From positions 96,758-119,587 of the IMG/VR virus record IMGVR_UViG_3300030098_007087: a DNA stretch of 22,830 bases. One strand, written 5' to 3'. This DNA is from a virus. How positions within the stretch are numbered: position 1 is the stretch's first letter; each line of letters begins with the position of its first letter. Of this stretch, positions 2,726-18,585 are shown piece after piece. The translations under genes were made by a program, and so were the position numbers. Below the pieces are notes generated by a model. That model saw only the letters and a list, made by a program, of their open reading frames with translations, was not told the DNA's origin and did not search any database.

Positions 2726-4309
2726 ATGGCTGGATATCAATTATCAAAAAAACAAATAGTCCAAGAAATCATAAAATGTGGTAAAGACCCCACACATTTC
2801 ATAAACAATTATGTAAAAATATCACACCCTCTTGAGGGTCAAATACCTTTCAAAACCTTTGACTTTCAAGCAGATCTGCTGGAAGACTTCAATGATTACC
2901 GCTTCAATATTGTCCTAAAAGCAAGACAGCTTGGCATCTCAACCATTGTTGCTGCATACGTTGCTTGGATGATGGTTTTCCACAGAGACAAAAACATTCT
3001 TGTGATTGCAACAAAGTTTGGAACTGCAACAAACCTTGTAAAAAAAGTAAAAAGCATGATAAAAAACCTTCCTGATTGGGTTCGCATAGCAGATGTGTCA
3101 ATTGATAATAGAGCCTCATTTGAGTTGAGTAATGGCTCCCAAATTAAAGCCTCATCAACCTCTGGCGATGCTGGACGTTCAGAAGCATTATCTCTTCTTG
3201 TTATTGACGAGGCAGCACATGTTGAGGGACTAGATGAGCTTTGGACTGGTTTGTATCCTACGCTGTCTACTGGTGGTCGCTGCATCGCACTTTCTACTCC
3301 AAATGGTGTTGGCAACTGGTTCCATCAATCATATACGGACGCAGAAACACAAAATAACGATTTTCACCCAACAATTTTACCATGGGATGTTCATCCCGAT
3401 AGAGACAAAACTTGGTTTGATAAAGAAACACGGAACATGTCGAGAAGACAGATCGCACAAGAGCTTGAATGCAACTTCAACACTTCCGGGGAGTCTGTTA
3501 TACACCCAGATGATATAAATAAAATGGAAGAATTTACCATATGCGAGCCGAAATATAAGACAGGGTTTGATAGGAATTTATGGATTTGGGAGCCGTATGA
3601 GTCTGGTAATACCTATGTTTTAGTCGCAGACGTTGCACGAGGAGATGGTAGAGACCATTCTGCTTTTCACATTATTAACGCAGACACTATGGAACAGGTT
3701 GCTGAATATCAGGGCAAGCCAAATCTGGAAATGTATGCAAACCTTCTAAACCAGACCGGGAGGGAATACGGAGAATGCCTTGTTGTGGTTGAAAACAATA
3801 ACATTGGTTTCTCAGTGCTGGAGAAACTAACAAATGAATATGAGTATCCTAATTTATACTATTCAGTAAAGTCTACTCACGAATACGTCGAGCAGGTTAT
3901 TGCAGAGCATCAGTCCAATACTGTCGCTGGTTTTACCACATCGATGAAAACTAGACCACTAATTATCGCCAAACTAGAAGAATTCGTAAGAAATCAACTA
4001 ATTACTTTGCGCTCAATTCGCTTAGTCAACGAATTGAGAACTTTTATTTGGAATAACGGCAGAGCACAGGCAATGCGAGGCTACAATGATGACTTGACTA
4101 TGAGTATCGCAATTGCATGCTGGGTAAAAGATACTGCACTAACAACAAATAAAAGGGCTATGGAATATAACAAAGCTTTTATTAGCTCCATGATTACGAC
4201 TAAAACATCTCTTAATACGACGATACCGGGACAAAAGGGGTATAAAGAAGTGAGAAAGGGTGATAAAATAAAAAAGCAGCAGCAATTTGAATGGCTCTAC
4301 AAAGGATGA
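2726..4309 (+). CDS. 17: Terminase large subunit (T4 gp17-like ATPase-nuclease)
   Basis: This is a 527-residue DNA packaging motor that pumps DNA through the portal and cuts concatemers. The ATPase half shows a deviant Walker A at residues 65-73 (KARQLGIST), Walker B at 157-162 (LLVIDE) with the catalytic glutamate, and coupling motif III at 190-193 (STPN, in LSTPNGVGNWFH). The RNase H-like nuclease half shows candidate metal ligands D302 (VADVARGDG), E356 (VVVEN) and D455/D456 (GYNDDLTMS), matching the D/E/D pattern of T4 gp17 in order and spacing. The length is slightly below T4 gp17. The basic tail (KGDKIKKQQQ) may contact DNA or portal. ATG at 2726 is chosen over the out-of-frame ATG at 2721 because it gives the full N-terminus and follows an AAAAGG site. 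The portal gene starts 5 bases downstream. Confidence 0.96.
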   Translation: MAGYQLSKKQIVQEIIKCGKDPTHFINNYVKISHPLEGQIPFKTFDFQADLLEDFNDYRFNIVLKARQLGISTIVAAYVAWMMVFHRDKNILVIATKFGTATNLVKKVKSMIKNLPDWVRIADVSIDNRASFELSNGSQIKASSTSGDAGRSEALSLLVIDEAAHVEGLDELWTGLYPTLSTGGRCIALSTPNGVGNWFHQSYTDAETQNNDFHPTILPWDVHPDRDKTWFDKETRNMSRRQIAQELECNFNTSGESVIHPDDINKMEEFTICEPKYKTGFDRNLWIWEPYESGNTYVLVADVARGDGRDHSAFHIINADTMEQVAEYQGKPNLEMYANLLNQTGREYGECLVVVENNNIGFSVLEKLTNEYEYPNLYYSVKSTHEYVEQVIAEHQSNTVAGFTTSMKTRPLIIAKLEEFVRNQLITLRSIRLVNELRTFIWNNGRAQAMRGYNDDLTMSIAIACWVKDTALTTNKRAMEYNKAFISSMITTKTSLNTTIPGQKGYKEVRKGDKIKKQQQFEWLYKG

Positions 4310-4314
4310 AATAA

Positions 4315-6267
4315 ATGGTTGACCAACAAAAAAACCCAAGACAAGCGAATTCACCACTCTTCAAAAGACTAACCAGACTTTTTTCTGGACCAATTGTAAA
4401 CTACCGTGCTCAAACCCCACGCCAACTTAGAAGAGCGCAACTGAACAAGTATGATTTCACATCAGCTAGCGGGATGTCTTTCAAAAAAGCCTCGTATGAA
4501 CCTCTAAGCGGCTATCCAATGAATTCTGTAATGGGCAATCTGAGCAGGGCTGAAAGGTATGCCGACTTTGATCAGATGGAATACATGCCAGAATTAGCAT
4601 CAGCAATGGACATTTACGCTGATGAAATGACAACATCTTCAGAGTTACAAGAGCTTTTGCGTATTGACTGCCCAAATGATGAGATCAAAGCCGTGCTGGA
4701 AACGCTTTATCACAACGTTCTCAATATTGACCACAACCTCTTTGGTTGGTGCAGAACGATGTGCAAATTTGGTGATTATTTTCTTTATCTAGATATCGAC
4801 GAGCAAATGGGAATTACAAATGTGATCGGGTTGCCAACTCCTGAAATTGAGAGATTGGAAGGTGAGGACAAGACCAACCCAAATTACGTCCAATATCAGT
4901 GGAATTCTGGAGGTCTCACCTTTGAAAACTGGCAGATTGGGCACTTTAGAATTTTAGGCAACGATAAATATGCTCCATACGGCACATCAGTGTTAGAGCC
5001 AGCCCGTCGTATCTGGAGACAACTCACTCTTCTTGAGGATGCAATGATGGCTTATCGTATTGTTAGGTCACCTGAGCGCCGCGTGTTTTATATCGATGTT
5101 GGTAACATTGCGCCGCAAGACATCGAGCAATACATGCAAAAGGTTATGACTCAAATGAAGCGAAATCAGGTTGTTGACCCAACCACCGGTCGCGTTGATT
5201 TGAGATACAATCCTATGTCAGTCGAGGAAGATTATTTTATACCAACAAGAGGCAACGTTAGTTCTAAAATTGAAACACTAGCTGGGGGAACTTATACCGG
5301 TGACATCGATGATGTAAAATACCTTAGAGACAAGCTATTCTCCGCTATCAAAATTCCTGCTTCTTATTTGACAACTTCTGAGGAGGGCGCTGAAGATAAG
5401 ACAACTCTAGCACAAAAAGACATCCGCTTTGCTAGAACTATCCAAAGATTACAGCGAGCGGTAATTACAGAGCTTGAAAAGATTGGAATTATTCACCTTT
5501 ATACTCTTGGATTCAGGCAGGAAGATTTGATTTCTTTCAAGCTGTACTTAAACAATCCGTCTAGAATCGCAGAGTTGCAAGAGCTAGAGCACTGGAGAAC
5601 TAAATTTGAAATTGCGTCCAACGCAACAGAAGGATTCTTCAGCAAACGCTGGGTTGCACACAACATCTTTAACTTGTCTGACGAAGAATTCTTGAGAGTT
5701 CAAAGGGAAATGTTCCACGATAGAAAAGTACAAGCCCTTCTTGATGCTGCTGGAGAGGCTGTTACCGCCGAAGGCGGTGCTGGCGGGGGCGGTCTAGGTG
5801 GTGATTTAGGCGGCGAAGAGGATCTTGGTGGTGATGACTTGGGTGGCGGCGATGACCTCGGAGGCGACGATCTCGGAGGTGACGATGCCGGCGCAGGCGA
5901 TGAAGGTGAAGGAGATGACGTGCTTCTAGCAACACCAGACACTGGCGGCGACGAGCCACCAGCTAGAAGAGATGACAATGGCAGGACCATGACTACAACT
6001 TCTAAATCAAAAGGCAAACACTACACCCCGCGCATTAGTAAGAATCCCGCTGGTCATCGGAAAAGGAACATGAAAAGCAAGTATGCAGGGGATAGTATCG
6101 GCAGTGTTAGAGATATTCTTCCGGGTTTTGAACTTGCAAAAGGAATTTACGAGAGTAAAGAGTCTAATTATGAGAACGAAGAAAAAAAAGTTTTTGAAGT
6201 AAATAATGAAATAAAGAAGCTTATAAACGAATTGGAGTCCAAAGATAATGAAGCTAAAGCACAATAA
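4315..6267 (+). CDS. 20: Portal vertex protein (T4 gp20-like)
   Basis: This is a 650-residue protein. It forms the dodecameric portal ring at one capsid vertex, nucleates prohead assembly and docks the terminase. T4 gp20-like segments are present in order: an N-terminal arm (about residues 1-60), ASAMDIYADEMTTSSE (about 95-110), FGDYFLYLDID, the APYGTSVLEPARRIWRQL helix, YRIVRSPERRVFYIDVGN, FIPTRGNVSSKIETLAGG and KLFSAIKIPASYL, followed by the crown region. It is longer than T4 gp20 (about 524 residues). The extra length is largely a Gly/Asp low-complexity linker at about residues 488-537 and a basic, charged tail. The following gene overlaps its 3' end by 20 bases. Spacing to the terminase is 5 bases, with AAAGGA as ribosome site. 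Confidence 0.95.
   Translation: MVDQQKNPRQANSPLFKRLTRLFSGPIVNYRAQTPRQLRRAQLNKYDFTSASGMSFKKASYEPLSGYPMNSVMGNLSRAERYADFDQMEYMPELASAMDIYADEMTTSSELQELLRIDCPNDEIKAVLETLYHNVLNIDHNLFGWCRTMCKFGDYFLYLDIDEQMGITNVIGLPTPEIERLEGEDKTNPNYVQYQWNSGGLTFENWQIGHFRILGNDKYAPYGTSVLEPARRIWRQLTLLEDAMMAYRIVRSPERRVFYIDVGNIAPQDIEQYMQKVMTQMKRNQVVDPTTGRVDLRYNPMSVEEDYFIPTRGNVSSKIETLAGGTYTGDIDDVKYLRDKLFSAIKIPASYLTTSEEGAEDKTTLAQKDIRFARTIQRLQRAVITELEKIGIIHLYTLGFRQEDLISFKLYLNNPSRIAELQELEHWRTKFEIASNATEGFFSKRWVAHNIFNLSDEEFLRVQREMFHDRKVQALLDAAGEAVTAEGGAGGGGLGGDLGGEEDLGGDDLGGGDDLGGDDLGGDDAGAGDEGEGDDVLLATPDTGGDEPPARRDDNGRTMTTTSKSKGKHYTPRISKNPAGHRKRNMKSKYAGDSIGSVRDILPGFELAKGIYESKESNYENEEKKVFEVNNEIKKLINELESKDNEAKAQ
5776..5930 (+). 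repeat. In-frame Gly/Asp-rich low-complexity repeat in the portal gene
   Basis: The DNA repeats short G-rich units (variants of ggtggtgatgacttg) that encode GGDDLGG-type motifs over about 50 residues. The codons vary between copies (ggt/ggc/gga, gat/gac), so the protein pattern is kept more strictly than the DNA. This is probably a flexible acidic linker or tail after the portal core. The antisense reading gives spurious Ser/Pro/Arg-rich open frames. Confidence 0.8.
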
Positions 6268-7959: not shown

Positions 7960-8077
7960 ATGAAGCGTTGGAAATTACAACCAGTCAGAAGATGCTGTAA
8001 AGGGTCCTAGCTCGAACGGGTCACGCCCGTATAAGGAAATAGATTATGTCAAAAAAACTTTTGAGAGAATATTATGA
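7960..8077 (+). CDS. Possible tiny gene split by a +1 frameshift (site of shift not resolved)
   Basis: ATG at 7960 has a perfect GGAGG at 7950-7954 with 5-base spacing, but its own frame gives only 16 residues (MKRWKLQPVRRCCKGS) before TAG at 8008. The +1 frame is open from 7964 to TGA at 8075-8077 and reads much more like protein: NQSEDAVKGPSSNGSRPYK then EIDYVKKTFERIL. It has no start codon of its own. Joining the frames near 7972-7976 would give a protein of about 38 residues starting MKRWKYNQSEDAV and overlapping the protease start by 32 bases. Explanations are a programmed +1 shift, a one-base insertion in this genome or assembly, or a real 16-residue peptide. The slot corresponds to small prohead core genes in T4 (67/68), but no homology can be claimed. 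Confidence 0.45.
8016..8030 (+). other. Short GC hairpin upstream of the protease gene
   Basis: acggg at 8016-8020 pairs with cccgt at 8026-8030 around a 5-base loop. No T-run follows, so it is not a terminator. It sits just before the ribosome site (AAGGA) of the protease gene and inside the +1 reading frame of the tiny gene. It could tune initiation or the frameshift, or be chance. Confidence 0.35.
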
Positions 8078-8648
8078 ACTTTGTGAAGGTGGTGTATGTC
8101 AAGACCTACTCACTGAGGATGAAAAGAAATTTGTGGCTACCGGAGGTATGATACTTACCGGAAAGCTGCAAGAAGCTGAAGTCCAAAATGGAAATGGTAG
8201 AGTGTACCCTCAAAAGGTCTTGCGTCGGGAGATGCAAAATTATGACAAGCTAGTTAGAGAGAGAAGAGCGCTTGGCGAATTGGACCACCCTGACGATTCA
8301 GTAATCAATCTCAAAAATGCATCCCATCTTGTGACGGAAGTTTGGTGGGACGGCAATTCAGTAATGGGAAAAGTAAAAGTGCTAGATACCCCCTCTGGAA
8401 AAGTCCTTAGATCTTTGGTTGATTCGGGCGTTTCTTTAGGAATTTCTTCGAGAGGCTTGGGGTCTGTATCTGAAGGTGCCAACGGGACTGTGACAGTTCA
8501 AGAAGATTTTCAACTTATTTGTTTTGATTTCGTATCTGAACCTTCAACGCCCGGAGCTTACATGGCATTACAAGAGGGTGTCGAAAAACAAATTTTTAGC
8601 AAAGCAGATAGAATCAACCGCGCTTTGAATTATGTTCTGGAGGATTAG
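8046..8648 (+). CDS. 21: Prohead core protease (T4 gp21-like)
   Basis: This is a 200-residue serine protease that sits in the prohead core, cleaves scaffold and capsid proteins and then degrades itself. Family marks in order: NGNGRVYP (residues 48-55), GELDHP with candidate catalytic H81, INLKNASH (87-94), and GISSRG with candidate catalytic S134/S135 (131-137). EDFQLICFDFVSEPS (153-167) is the conserved C-terminal strand. Length is close to T4 gp21 (about 212 residues). Three self-cleavage consensus sites (L/I-x-E|A/G) are present: LCE|G at 12-15, LQE|A at 41-44 and LQE|G at 175-178, in keeping with the family's autoproteolysis. The ATG follows an AAGGA site by 8 bases. The next gene starts directly after the stop. 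Confidence 0.94.
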   Translation: MSKKLLREYYELCEGGVCQDLLTEDEKKFVATGGMILTGKLQEAEVQNGNGRVYPQKVLRREMQNYDKLVRERRALGELDHPDDSVINLKNASHLVTEVWWDGNSVMGKVKVLDTPSGKVLRSLVDSGVSLGISSRGLGSVSEGANGTVTVQEDFQLICFDFVSEPSTPGAYMALQEGVEKQIFSKADRINRALNYVLED

Positions 8649-9074
8649 ATGAAAAAGTCAGATCTCAAAAAATTGATAAAGCCAATTGTAAAGGAGTGTA
8701 TTCAAGAATCCCTCCTAGAAGAAGGCGTTTTATCAAAGGTTATTTCAGAGGTTGCAGTGGGTTTGTCATCATCAAATAGTGCTGCACAGCCGCAAAAAAA
8801 AGAGGTGCAAAAACAGCCACTCTCTAGCAATAGAGAATCTGAAGCATTGGCTAATCTGAAAGAACACAGACAAAAAATGCTAGATGCTATTGGCAAAGAT
8901 TCTATGAATGGGGTAAATATTTTTGAAGGAACTGACCCCCTTCTATCCGCTGGCTCATCCGATGGTAGCCCAACGGGTGCTCTTGACGGAGTGGATCCCC
9001 GCGATCCGGGCGTTGACATATCCGACTTAGCGGGAGTTTTTGGTGATACTTGGAGAGTGATAAAAGATGGCTAA
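8649..9074 (+). CDS. Small phage protein with prohead-protease motifs; candidate core protein
   Basis: This is a 141-residue protein. Residues 1-35 form an amphipathic helix (KKSDLKKLIKPIVKECIQES) similar in style to the N-terminus of the gene at 73. The middle is Ser/Gln/Lys-rich and probably disordered. The C-terminus is Asp/Gly-rich (DPRDPGVDISDLAGVFGDTW). Two motifs fit the T4 gp21 consensus: LEE|G at residues 23-26 and IFE|G at 91-94. With ATG immediately after the protease stop, and a bS21 gene overlapping its end by 8 bases, it is embedded in the prohead assembly block. A prohead core or internal head role is a reasonable guess. No family can be named with confidence. Confidence 0.78.
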   Translation: MKKSDLKKLIKPIVKECIQESLLEEGVLSKVISEVAVGLSSSNSAAQPQKKEVQKQPLSSNRESEALANLKEHRQKMLDAIGKDSMNGVNIFEGTDPLLSAGSSDGSPTGALDGVDPRDPGVDISDLAGVFGDTWRVIKDG

Positions 9075-9306
9075 AGCAGTTAATATAGAAGTTACCTTAA
9101 GACCGGGAGAACACCCGGAAAGAATGATCAGACGATTCATTAGAAAAGTAAAAAAATCTGGAATCATGGAAGACTACAAAGCACGTAGATTTCATGAAAA
9201 AAAATCTGATAAAAACAGAAGAATAAAGCAAGCTCGAAAAAGAGCGCACGAAAGAGAAGTAGCCAATAAAAAGGCAAAAGAATTACAATTAGAGAGGGGA
9301 AGATAA
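9067..9306 (+). CDS. rpsU: Phage-encoded small ribosomal subunit protein bS21 homologue
   Basis: This is a 79-residue very basic protein. The family pattern is followed closely: NIEVTLRPGE at residues 6-15, then RRFIRKVKKSGIM, then YKARRFHEKKSDKNRR and an Arg/Lys/Ala-rich helical tail. Cellular bS21 is about 70 residues, so this is full length with a slightly extended tail. In bacteria bS21 binds the 30S platform next to the anti-Shine-Dalgarno end of 16S rRNA and influences initiation. Viral bS21 genes are known from marine and other phages. Here it overlaps the previous gene by 8 bases and is followed by a virion gene, so it should be expressed with late proteins. It may displace or replace host bS21 to favour late phage mRNAs; that effect is inference. 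Confidence 0.9.
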   Translation: MAKAVNIEVTLRPGEHPERMIRRFIRKVKKSGIMEDYKARRFHEKKSDKNRRIKQARKRAHEREVANKKAKELQLERGR

Positions 9307-9711
9307 ATGGCAAATTATTACAATTATACAAAAGGGATGGGCAACGTCGGTTCGTATCTAGTATCAGGAATCCCCTATGCTACAGGAGCTATCACTGTCG
9401 ATGCTAATAATGGTGACCCGTATGTGATTGACTTTCCAAATGTTACAAGATTTGTGACAATTAGAAATGGAGATGCCACCGCCGACCTTCGCGTCGGTTT
9501 TAGCGTACATGGTGTAAAGGGAGACGTAAACAACTACTATCATCTAGTCAGCCCTTCAGGCAGCCTTACTCTTGATGTTAGAGTTGCGGAACTATATTTG
9601 CTTGGCAATACAGCCGGAACTTGTGACAATGTTAGCGTTTCTGCTGGGCTTACTGGCATTAGTGAAACAGAATTACCAACGAACTGGAGTGGTTCTGCTG
9701 GAGTGGGCTAA
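9307..9711 (+). CDS. Putative virion surface/decoration protein (beta-rich)
   Basis: This is a 134-residue protein, neutral and rich in Gly, Ser, Val, Asn and Tyr, with alternating strand-like segments (YVIDFPNVTRFVTIRNGD, LRVGFSVHGVKG, GSLTLDVRVAELYLLG). This composition is typical of small beta-sandwich capsid decoration or fibre-like proteins. There are no membrane segments or catalytic motifs. The start lies one codon after the bS21 stop and follows GAGGGGAAG. It is the last gene before the intergenic gap leading to the scaffold and major capsid, which supports a head role. A tail role is not excluded. I do not recognise a named family. Confidence 0.72.
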   Translation: MANYYNYTKGMGNVGSYLVSGIPYATGAITVDANNGDPYVIDFPNVTRFVTIRNGDATADLRVGFSVHGVKGDVNNYYHLVSPSGSLTLDVRVAELYLLGNTAGTCDNVSVSAGLTGISETELPTNWSGSAGVG

Positions 9712-9744: not shown

Positions 9745-9749
9745 ATTCA

Positions 9750-9758
9750 CTAATTATA
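9750..9758 (+). promoter_or_regulatory. CTAATTATA element upstream of scaffold gene (possible promoter)
   Basis: The 12-base string cactaattataa at 9748-9759 recurs exactly at 15561-15572 before the sheath gene. It resembles the CTATTTATA elements in three other gaps. The ATG of the scaffold gene is 46 bases downstream with an AGGAG site between, so a late promoter here is plausible. No -35 element is evident. Confidence 0.42.
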
Positions 9759-9803
9759 AACGATGTACTATATCTATAAGCACTTAAATACAGGAGCAAA
9801 AAA

Positions 9804-10811
9804 ATGTCTAATATGTTAGAACAAGCAATTGTTGATGCGGAAGCACTCAAAGAAGCTGCGCTACAAAACGCGGAACAAGCCGTGATTGAAAAATACCAAT
9901 CAGAAATTAAAAATGCCGTTGAAGCACTTTTGGAACAGGATGAGGATGATCCTTTTGAGGAGCCGCTTGATGACGAAGACGGTTTAGAATCAGATGAAGA
10001 TCTAGCGCAACAAATGCCGCTCGCTTCCACGGGGGGTGACAAGCTTTGCCCATGTCCAGACGATGAAGAAGAAGTTGAAATTGATTTTGATCAATTGGCA
10101 CAGCAAATGCAAGCATCAGATGCAGAGGCGGGGGGGGGTATTCCCGCATTAGACTCTCCTTTAGCAGAGAACCTTAATGAAGAGGCAGACGAAGAAGAGG
10201 TGGAAGAAGAAATTCAAATTACCGAAGAAGAACTTGTAGATATTTTAGAAGAACTCACACTTGACATGGAGCCTACAAAGGCTGGCTGGCTACAAAGACC
10301 AGATTCAAGTGTTGAGCACGAGATTGATATTCTTCAAACTAAAGTTGAAGAACCTCTTGATGTTAAGGAACTAGAGGAAGAAGAAAAAGAAGACGAAGAT
10401 CTTAGTGAAGCTCTAAATGCTTTAGAGAACGCTGAGAATGAAATTTATCGGCTTGAAGAAAAAGCCGATAAATACAAAGAAATGCTTTTGCAAATGAAGA
10501 GCACCTTGACGGAGGTAAATCTTCAGAACGCAAAACTACTCTATACAAATCAGGTTTTGGTTGACGACTCCCTAAATGAGCGACAAAAGAATAAAATTGT
10601 CGAGGCAATCATGAAGTCTGGTTCTGTGGAAGAGACAAAGACAATTTTCGAGGCACTTCAAAGCACGGTGGGAGCGCAACCAAATAAAAAGGTTGCGCCA
10701 AAATCACTTAGCGAGGCAGTTGAGAGAAGGTCTACAACATTACCTAGAAGGGTAGAAAAGGAATCCCATTCGTATTCGGATAGGATGAAAATTTTAGCTG
10801 GTATTAACTAA
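9804..10811 (+). CDS. 22: Prohead core scaffolding protein (T4 gp22-like)
   Basis: This is a 335-residue, extremely acidic, helical protein (runs of Asp/Glu at residues about 45-66 and 124-200, then a coiled coil at about 205-250). It lies directly before the major capsid gene, as gp22 does in T4, and ends MKILAGIN in the style of gp22 C-termini. It should form the internal core on which gp23 assembles and then be cut to peptides. Five sites fit the protease consensus: LKE|A (15-18), LSE|A (200-203), IVE|A (265-268), IFE|A (281-284) and LSE|A (302-305). Length is above T4 gp22 (about 269). A run of nine G at 10130-10138 encodes Ala-Gly-Gly-Gly. The capsid gene follows after 17 bases. Confidence 0.9.
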   Translation: MSNMLEQAIVDAEALKEAALQNAEQAVIEKYQSEIKNAVEALLEQDEDDPFEEPLDDEDGLESDEDLAQQMPLASTGGDKLCPCPDDEEEVEIDFDQLAQQMQASDAEAGGGIPALDSPLAENLNEEADEEEVEEEIQITEEELVDILEELTLDMEPTKAGWLQRPDSSVEHEIDILQTKVEEPLDVKELEEEEKEDEDLSEALNALENAENEIYRLEEKADKYKEMLLQMKSTLTEVNLQNAKLLYTNQVLVDDSLNERQKNKIVEAIMKSGSVEETKTIFEALQSTVGAQPNKKVAPKSLSEAVERRSTTLPRRVEKESHSYSDRMKILAGIN

Positions 10812-10828: not shown

Positions 10829-12679
10829 ATGTCAGTTTTAGATAAATTAACAGAAGGCATCGTTAATCGCAATCTCCAGAAGGAAGGTGCTGCCCTGCTT
10901 GACAAGTGGGAAAAGACCGGGCTTCTTGAAGGTTTAGATAACGATAGCAATAAGGCGTCTATGTCACGCCTTTTGGAGAACCAAGCGAAGGAACTTCTTC
11001 GTGAGGCAAGCTCCATGGCAGCAGGAGATGTTCAAGGTTTCGCTGCTGTAGCATTCCCAATCGTTCGCCGTGTATTCGGCAGTTTGGTTGCTAATGACTT
11101 GATTTCGGTTCAACCAATGAGCCTCCCATCAGGTCTCATTTTCTTCCTTGATTTCACTTTGAGCAACGCTCGTTTGGATCAAGGACAAAACGCATCCCTC
11201 TACGGAGGAGGCGTTGTCGGTTCACAACTTACAGGTGGTGTTAACCTTGGTGGTGCTGGAAATGCAAATGCTGCTCAAGCAGAGCGCAGCTTCTATGCAC
11301 TTAACAATGGATACTCCTCCCCAACTGGATCTGCTGCATTAGCTTCCGTGATTGCTATTGCATCTGGTGTTGTTGGATCTGGAGTTGGTGATGACGTTGA
11401 AAACTCTTTGACGCCTGCAACACTTGGTGGTGCGACTACTTACTTGAGCGATCTTGTACGCTACGACCCAGATCTCGAAGGTAAATCTGTTGTTGTTGTT
11501 AGTGCAACCGCTGCAAATCTTGCCGGCGCACTTAATCGCAATGATCTTATCACCGTTGTTTACACTGCTAGTGCGGATATGGAGCAGGGACGCCAAGTTC
11601 GCCGCTTGACAGACCTCAAGGGACGTAATGCTGCAAACGCTGGTAAATCTGTAAATGCTCTTGATCTTGCAAATACATCGGACACTTCGATTGTTCTTGT
11701 TTTTGAATCAACAGCTTCCGCAGGTTCTGCTGCAATAACAACTAACTTGTCTGCTGCAATCAACTTGATTGGAACTACTCCAACTGTTGACTTTGCTCGT
11801 GCAGATGCGTTCCAGAATGTTGGTACTGACGCACTTGGAGCACTTGCTGGTACTTCCCCATGGGGACTTGAAGGTGCTGCTGCTGCCGCTGGTGAGTTCA
11901 ACGGAAACCAAGTTGACCTTATTCCAGAGATCGACATCAAAGTTGATTCTGTCAGCGTAACTGCTGTGACCAAGAAGCTCAAGGCGAAGTGGACCCCAGA
12001 ACTTGGACAAGACCTCCAAGCTTACCACAACCTTGACGCAGAAGTTGAGCTTACAAGCATCCTTTCTGAGCAAATTGCTCTTGAAATTGACCGCGAGTTG
12101 CTCAATGATCTTGTAAAGGGTGCATCTGCTGCAACTCTTCACTGGTCACGTCGTCCGGGTCAATTCTTGAACAGAGAAAGTGGTGTCAAGATCGACAACA
12201 CTACTACTCCACCAGACTTCACTGGTACTGTTTCTGAATGGTATGAGACTTTGATTGAAACCATCAATGATGTTTCTGCTCAAATCCACAGAAAGACACT
12301 CCGTGGTGGCGCAAACTTCTTAGTTTGTTCACCAGAAGTCGCGAACATTCTTGAGTTCACAAGCGGATTCCGCGCAAGCGTTACTGCTGACACTCCAAGA
12401 GGTTCCGCAGGTGCTGTAAAAGTTGGTCAGATTAGTAAGAAGTTTGACATTTACGTTGATCCTTACTTTATCAGAAACGTTATCCTTGTTGGACGCAAGG
12501 GTGGAAGCTTCTTAGAAAGTGGATATGTGTACGCCCCATACGTGCCGCTCCAAGTCACTCCTACCATCTTTGGTACGGAAGACTTCGTGCCGCGTAAGGG
12601 TGTCATGACACGCTATGCTAAGAAGATGGTACGTCCTGATATGTACGGATTAGTTGTTTGTCACAATCTTATTAACTAA
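10829..12679 (+). CDS. 23: Major capsid protein (T4 gp23-like)
   Basis: This is a 616-residue HK97-fold subunit of the head lattice. Recognised regions: the N-terminal delta domain (SVLDKLTEGIVNRNLQKEG), FAAVAFPIVRRVFGSLVAND (about 71-90), SVQPMSLPSGLIFFLDF, a variable Ala/Gly/Thr-rich insertion (about 110-360), KLKAKWTPELGQDLQAYHNL, LSEQIALEIDRELLND, and the C-terminal KFDIYVDPYFIRNVILVGRK and FGTEDFVPRKG segments. It is larger than T4 gp23 (521). The most likely prohead protease site is LRE|A at residues 57-60, near the T4 site (after residue 65); LTE|G (7-10) and LLE|G (32-35) also fit. Arginine codons are mostly CGT/CGC, unlike the AGA-rich neighbours, which suggests selection for high expression. 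A strong terminator follows. Confidence 0.96.
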   Translation: MSVLDKLTEGIVNRNLQKEGAALLDKWEKTGLLEGLDNDSNKASMSRLLENQAKELLREASSMAAGDVQGFAAVAFPIVRRVFGSLVANDLISVQPMSLPSGLIFFLDFTLSNARLDQGQNASLYGGGVVGSQLTGGVNLGGAGNANAAQAERSFYALNNGYSSPTGSAALASVIAIASGVVGSGVGDDVENSLTPATLGGATTYLSDLVRYDPDLEGKSVVVVSATAANLAGALNRNDLITVVYTASADMEQGRQVRRLTDLKGRNAANAGKSVNALDLANTSDTSIVLVFESTASAGSAAITTNLSAAINLIGTTPTVDFARADAFQNVGTDALGALAGTSPWGLEGAAAAAGEFNGNQVDLIPEIDIKVDSVSVTAVTKKLKAKWTPELGQDLQAYHNLDAEVELTSILSEQIALEIDRELLNDLVKGASAATLHWSRRPGQFLNRESGVKIDNTTTPPDFTGTVSEWYETLIETINDVSAQIHRKTLRGGANFLVCSPEVANILEFTSGFRASVTADTPRGSAGAVKVGQISKKFDIYVDPYFIRNVILVGRKGGSFLESGYVYAPYVPLQVTPTIFGTEDFVPRKGVMTRYAKKMVRPDMYGLVVCHNLIN

Positions 12680-15518: not shown

Positions 15519-15562
15519 AAAAATAAAAATAAACGATACTGGAGTTTTCGCACTTTAGCACA

Positions 15563-15571
15563 CTAATTATA
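15563..15571 (+). promoter_or_regulatory. CTAATTATA element upstream of sheath gene (possible promoter)
   Basis: cactaattataa at 15561-15572 is an exact 12-base repeat of the element before the scaffold gene (9748-9759). It lies in the 104-base gap ahead of the sheath gene, 52 bases before its ATG. A second A/T-rich stretch (attgtaaactaata) follows. Recurrence before two highly expressed structural genes supports a late promoter function. Confidence 0.45.
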
Positions 15572-15622
15572 AGAGAAATTATTGTAAACTAATACACTTA
15601 TCATAATAAGGAGAACAACAAC

Positions 15623-18550: not shown

Positions 18551-18576
18551 AGTGAGGGGTTTTGCCTCCCCTCACT
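18551..18576 (+). terminator. Perfect hairpin between sheath and tube genes, possibly bidirectional
   Basis: agtgagggg (18551-18559) pairs perfectly with cccctcact (18568-18576) around an 8-base loop. On the + strand only attta follows, a poor T-run, so + strand termination would be partial. On the - strand the hairpin is followed by tcttttttatt, a good T-run, so it looks better suited to stop antisense transcripts. It may also protect the sheath mRNA 3' end. Its right arm runs into the next promoter-like element. Confidence 0.7.
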
Positions 18577-18585
18577 ATTTATAAT
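18575..18585 (+). promoter_or_regulatory. CTATTTATAAT element upstream of tail tube gene
   Basis: CTATTTATA is the second of three exact copies and here runs into TATAAT (18580-18585), a perfect bacterial -10 hexamer. The string TATAATACAAA (18580-18590) recurs at 19166-19176 before the next gene. The tube gene ATG is 28 bases after the hexamer, with AGGAGG between. No -35 box is visible, because the hairpin occupies that position. Confidence 0.45.

Follow-up and report, generated by a model that had tools for sequence, protein, structure and literature searches.

The window analyzed here is a 22,830-nucleotide stretch of DNA that forms the end (positions 96,758–119,587) of a 119,587-base IMG/VR phage record. 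Its genes are of the T4 type and include those for terminase, portal (gp20), protease (gp21), capsid (gp23), a head–tail adaptor-like protein, sheath, tube, and baseplate hub. Embedded in the head module is a short reading frame that encodes a form of ribosomal protein S21 (bS21). The features relevant to this locus are as follows.

2726–4309, + strand, terminase large subunit (Pfam Terminase_6N, phrog_2)
4315–6267, + strand, portal protein of the T4 gp20 type (Pfam Portal_T4, E 2.8e-76)
8046–8648, + strand, prohead protease of the T4 gp21 type (Pfam Peptidase_S77, E 2.4e-33; phrog_207)
8649–9074, + strand, conserved 141-aa gene directly upstream of bS21, overlapping its start by 8 bases; termini conserved
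9067–9306, + strand, phage bS21, ATG to TAA, 79 aa (Pfam, NCBIfam, PHROG, PDB sequence, and predicted fold)
9307–9711, + strand, 134-aa beta-rich gene directly downstream of bS21 (predicted fold)
9748–9759, + strand, CACTAATTATAA, a putative late-promoter motif lying between the bS21 cassette and the scaffold-like gene
9804–10811, + strand, acidic scaffold-like protein in the T4 gp22 position (position and acidic sequence)
10829–12679, + strand, major capsid protein of the T4 gp23 type (Pfam Gp23, E 4.8e-71)

From the gp21 protease to the gp23 capsid, the intervening genes encode, in order, the 141-aa protein, bS21, the 134-aa protein, and the acidic scaffold-like protein. T4-type head genes lie on both sides of bS21, in agreement with the late-module placement proposed in an earlier note on this DNA, and the 8-base overlap that it described with a head-module gene is found between the bS21 start and the end of the 8649–9074 gene. 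Its placement of bS21 between protease and capsid also holds as an order of genes, although one gene separates bS21 from the protease and two separate it from the capsid. The description of a virion gene one codon after bS21 stands in part: an ATG at 9307 abuts the stop codon with zero spacer, but the 134-aa product is without a family match in Pfam or PHROG that would show it to be a virion protein. Its predicted fold is beta-rich, and the structural matches are weak and mostly to unnamed phage proteins; a virion gene is plausible at this site, and from the modeled fold the product may possibly be a head decoration protein. For the scaffold-like protein, Pfam and PHROG searches for a family match found none, and a homolog of it directly precedes the capsid gene in most relatives.

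Several lines of evidence bear on the identity of the 9067–9306 product. The earlier note had called it a full-length bS21-like protein on the basis of three peptides, all of which lie inside this reading frame, and had stated that a profile search with no bS21 match would refute it. Such a search gave a match well above the cut-off for PF01165 (Ribosomal_S21; 51.7 bits against 27, E 6.9e-14), and the NCBIfam profile TIGR00030 was also passed (42.7 bits, cut-off 28.95). Matches among PDB sequences are bS21 chains from several bacteria and from chloroplasts. The predicted structure has a mean pLDDT of 89.1, and the top PDB structures identified with Foldseek are again bS21 chains, with TM-scores of 0.82–0.85 normalized by target; the Foldseek E-values are weak for this small protein (0.014 at best), and it is the TM-scores and the ranking that carry the point about fold. 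By sequence and modeled structure, the gene is a genuine phage-encoded bS21, and it is the single bS21 detected in the whole 119,587-base record. Its sequence carries a high positive charge, as read directly. Both the fold and the core residues of bS21 are retained, and the phage proteins have divergent C-terminal extensions. In bS21 of the Bacteroidetes type, an aromatic residue at the position of Flavobacterium johnsoniae Tyr54 stacks on A1534 by the ASD. The coordinates of the match to 7jil_z put residue 54 near Lys58 of the window protein, a placement extrapolated past the aligned stretch and made from coordinates rather than from comparison with the F. johnsoniae sequence itself.

The distribution of this arrangement was assessed across related phages. 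An initial search of viral contigs with one bS21 protein found a single locus, and for this reason searches were anchored on the protease and capsid proteins, so that bS21 played no part in the choice of loci. In all loci that span both genes (29 of 29), bS21 lies between protease and capsid on the same strand. These include the window itself and some duplicates or near-duplicates (L004 and L084 are one contig, L005 has a bS21 identical to theirs, and L156 and L158 have one bS21 in common), so that about 26 cases are independent; one of the 29, L002, was found with bS21 as query. Many capsid loci are short and stop before the protease, and are uninformative either way on the linkage. Among 13 capsid loci that have no bS21 in the fetched flank, nine have one elsewhere when the whole record is searched. 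A later bS21-anchored search was left out of the evidence for linkage, as were the Listeria, Klebsiella, and Salmonella records matched by a second bS21 query, with alignments of only 33–46 residues. Whole-record searches detected no bS21 in two phages with named hosts, Flavobacterium phage immuto 3-5A and Rhodothermus phage RM378; over the aligned pieces, their capsid proteins share 47.5% and 41.8% identity, respectively, with the window capsid.

Some matches in phage collections fall outside this picture. The CAKLQH and CAKLQF matches labeled 'Acinetobacter phage' were rejected as phage, the CAKLQH neighbors having the look of bacterial chromosome; in CAKLQH020000004.1 the annotated rpsU, yqeY, gcp, htpX, and purF resemble a bacterial chromosome. 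Separately, a 484-kb phage record (LR756508.1) has a weak bS21-like reading frame of 19 bits at 4762–5001, about 2 kb before its capsid gene.

The gene upstream of bS21 is a recurrent partner. The 141-aa protein is without a gathering-level Pfam match or a PHROG match and is possibly a prohead core protein. Its family comprises 128 distinct homologs, usually directly 5′ of bS21, with a conserved amphipathic N-terminus and the C-terminal motif GVDPxDAGVDISSL. An upstream-gene homolog was found in 130 loci (among 137 distinct proteins, one of them a bacterial control), and in 112 of these 130 distinct cassettes, with start codons chosen by a simple rule, the upstream gene ends between −30 and +40 nt from the bS21 start; 32 overlap. 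These counts pool the loci of all searches, bS21-anchored ones included, and so describe how the cassette is built, not how frequent it is. Within sampling confined to this phage group, no clear case of the 141-aa family without bS21 was seen.

Values of omega for bS21 are 0.11–0.15 among the three closest copies, compared with 0.01–0.02 for the protease in the same genomes, and the window bS21 is under purifying selection. In a 72-column tree, the phage bS21 group stands apart from sampled bacterial bS21 with a split support of 0.96, the bacterial sample coming mostly from the phylum of one center genome. Phylogeny against host bS21 had been suggested both as a check and as a predictor of host; the phage proteins do separate, but the tree names no host. 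A genome scan for bS21-based host prediction gave as its only match DITM01000058.1, a phage-like contig assigned to a Paracaedibacteraceae assembly; it has the same head module with bS21 and is probably of phage origin, binned together with that genome. The constant cassette, purifying selection, and separate group in the tree together lead to the conclusion that bS21 has long belonged to the core genes of a large, uncultivated phage group.

Signals for translation and transcription were also assessed. The phage genes are SD-led throughout, and SD pairing is somewhat stronger for window genes than for those of three stretches elsewhere in the genome (median −6.7 versus −4.15 kcal/mol, p = 0.009, from crude longest-ORF gene calls and 22 genes). 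Under another start rule, 62% of window genes are at or below −6 compared with 43–52% elsewhere, a difference given without a statistical test. The stronger pairing in the window is suggestive. At up to one mismatch, CACTAATTATAA has three copies in the 119.6-kb record (9748–9759, 15561–15572, and 18573–18584), which precede the scaffold-like, sheath, and tube genes, all of them structural; a reversed control pattern gave one hit. The motif is possibly a late promoter. A T4-style late promoter, TATAAATA, was rejected, as both copies in the window lie inside genes.

Throughout this large group of uncultivated phages, a ribosomal protein keeps the same site within a T4-type head operon, and a role in translation late in infection is thereby likelier than chance acquisition of bS21. 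We think it probable that the phage protein, made from late head mRNA by coupled translation, joins the host 30S subunit and sustains or biases SD-led initiation. In this model, bS21 would be translated from the late head-gene mRNA in a manner coupled to the gene upstream, and would most likely take its place on host 30S subunits beside the 3′ end of 16S rRNA late in infection, either instead of host bS21 or in addition to it. Subunits carrying it may then sustain, or favor, initiation on the abundant SD-led mRNAs for phage structural proteins. Remodeling of host ribosomes toward such mRNAs, as proposed in the earlier note, would be consistent with the data. The model, and with it any putative gain in translation, is tempered by work on bS21 of the Pelagibacter phage HTVC008M, which was incorporated into E. 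coli 70S ribosomes; the resulting ribosomes were ∼5% active (Mizuno et al. 2019, PMC6375957).

Other explanations account for parts of the same evidence. Phage bS21 may simply refill ribosomes that lose or turn over their own copy, leaving the choice of mRNA unchanged. Viruses tend to encode ribosomal proteins that exchange readily, and bS21 is one of these (PMC6375957); purifying selection and a conserved fold fit such replacement; the separation of the phage group from bacterial bS21 and the divergent C-terminal extensions suggest a more specialized role and, without being decisive, make supply by itself rather unlikely. The strict linkage to head genes and the positive charge would also suit a bS21 fold recruited as a basic protein for head assembly or nucleic-acid binding, outside the ribosome. 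This is improbable given that bS21 keeps its fold and core residues, that it was not detected in the related phages immuto 3-5A and RM378, and that in other phages bS21 belongs to no specific gene cluster (PMC7029224). We would give still little weight to the idea that the 141-aa protein and bS21 are a coupled two-gene unit whose products cooperate, for example in loading of bS21 or in linking head assembly to translation. Delivery in the head as an effector that alters early translation, proposed for phage bS21 along with preferential late translation (PMC9723584) and in keeping with neighboring gp21 protease and capsid genes, is very unlikely, as inspection revealed no capsid-targeting leader before the bS21 domain (the profile match begins at residue 8) and position alone cannot tell a packaged protein from other products of a late module; the analysis yielded no evidence for packaging.

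The preferred reading, action on host 30S subunits late in infection, can be set beside known systems. Chen et al. (2022, PMC9723584) surveyed 900 phages with bS21 and found a prohead protease within ten genes in 310 of them and a capsid gene in 154; in freshwater lake phages, bS21 was transcribed late, together with structural genes. The window resembles these phages in that its terminase, portal, protease, and capsid genes all lie no more than ten genes from bS21. In the five clades of that study, bS21 runs opposite to the structural genes and the predicted hosts are Bacteroidetes, whereas the window bS21 shares the strand of its structural genes, overlaps the gene upstream by 8 bases, and accompanies SD-led genes; the window phage is not filed in those clades because of the shared strand. 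The HTVC008M protein, from the pelagimyophages (PMC7029224), is likewise encoded by a myovirus. A 2023 study (PMC9976891) noted the replacement model and speculated that a phage product may help in removing host bS21. A head-module bS21 was already described in 2022, so its kind is known and the main ideas of the earlier note are not new; within the open-licence literature searched, beyond which further descriptions may exist, the chief additions are a same-strand, overlapping cassette and how constant it is in the group. A close example with a named host is Microcystis phage Mel-JY01 (PP395634), in which protease, one gene, an annotated S21, three genes, and capsid follow one another on one strand. 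It differs from the window group in that its bS21 reaches just 48 bits with the group profile, and a homolog of the upstream gene was not detected in it. With its named host and matching layout, Mel-JY01 offers a system in which the role of bS21 could be tested.
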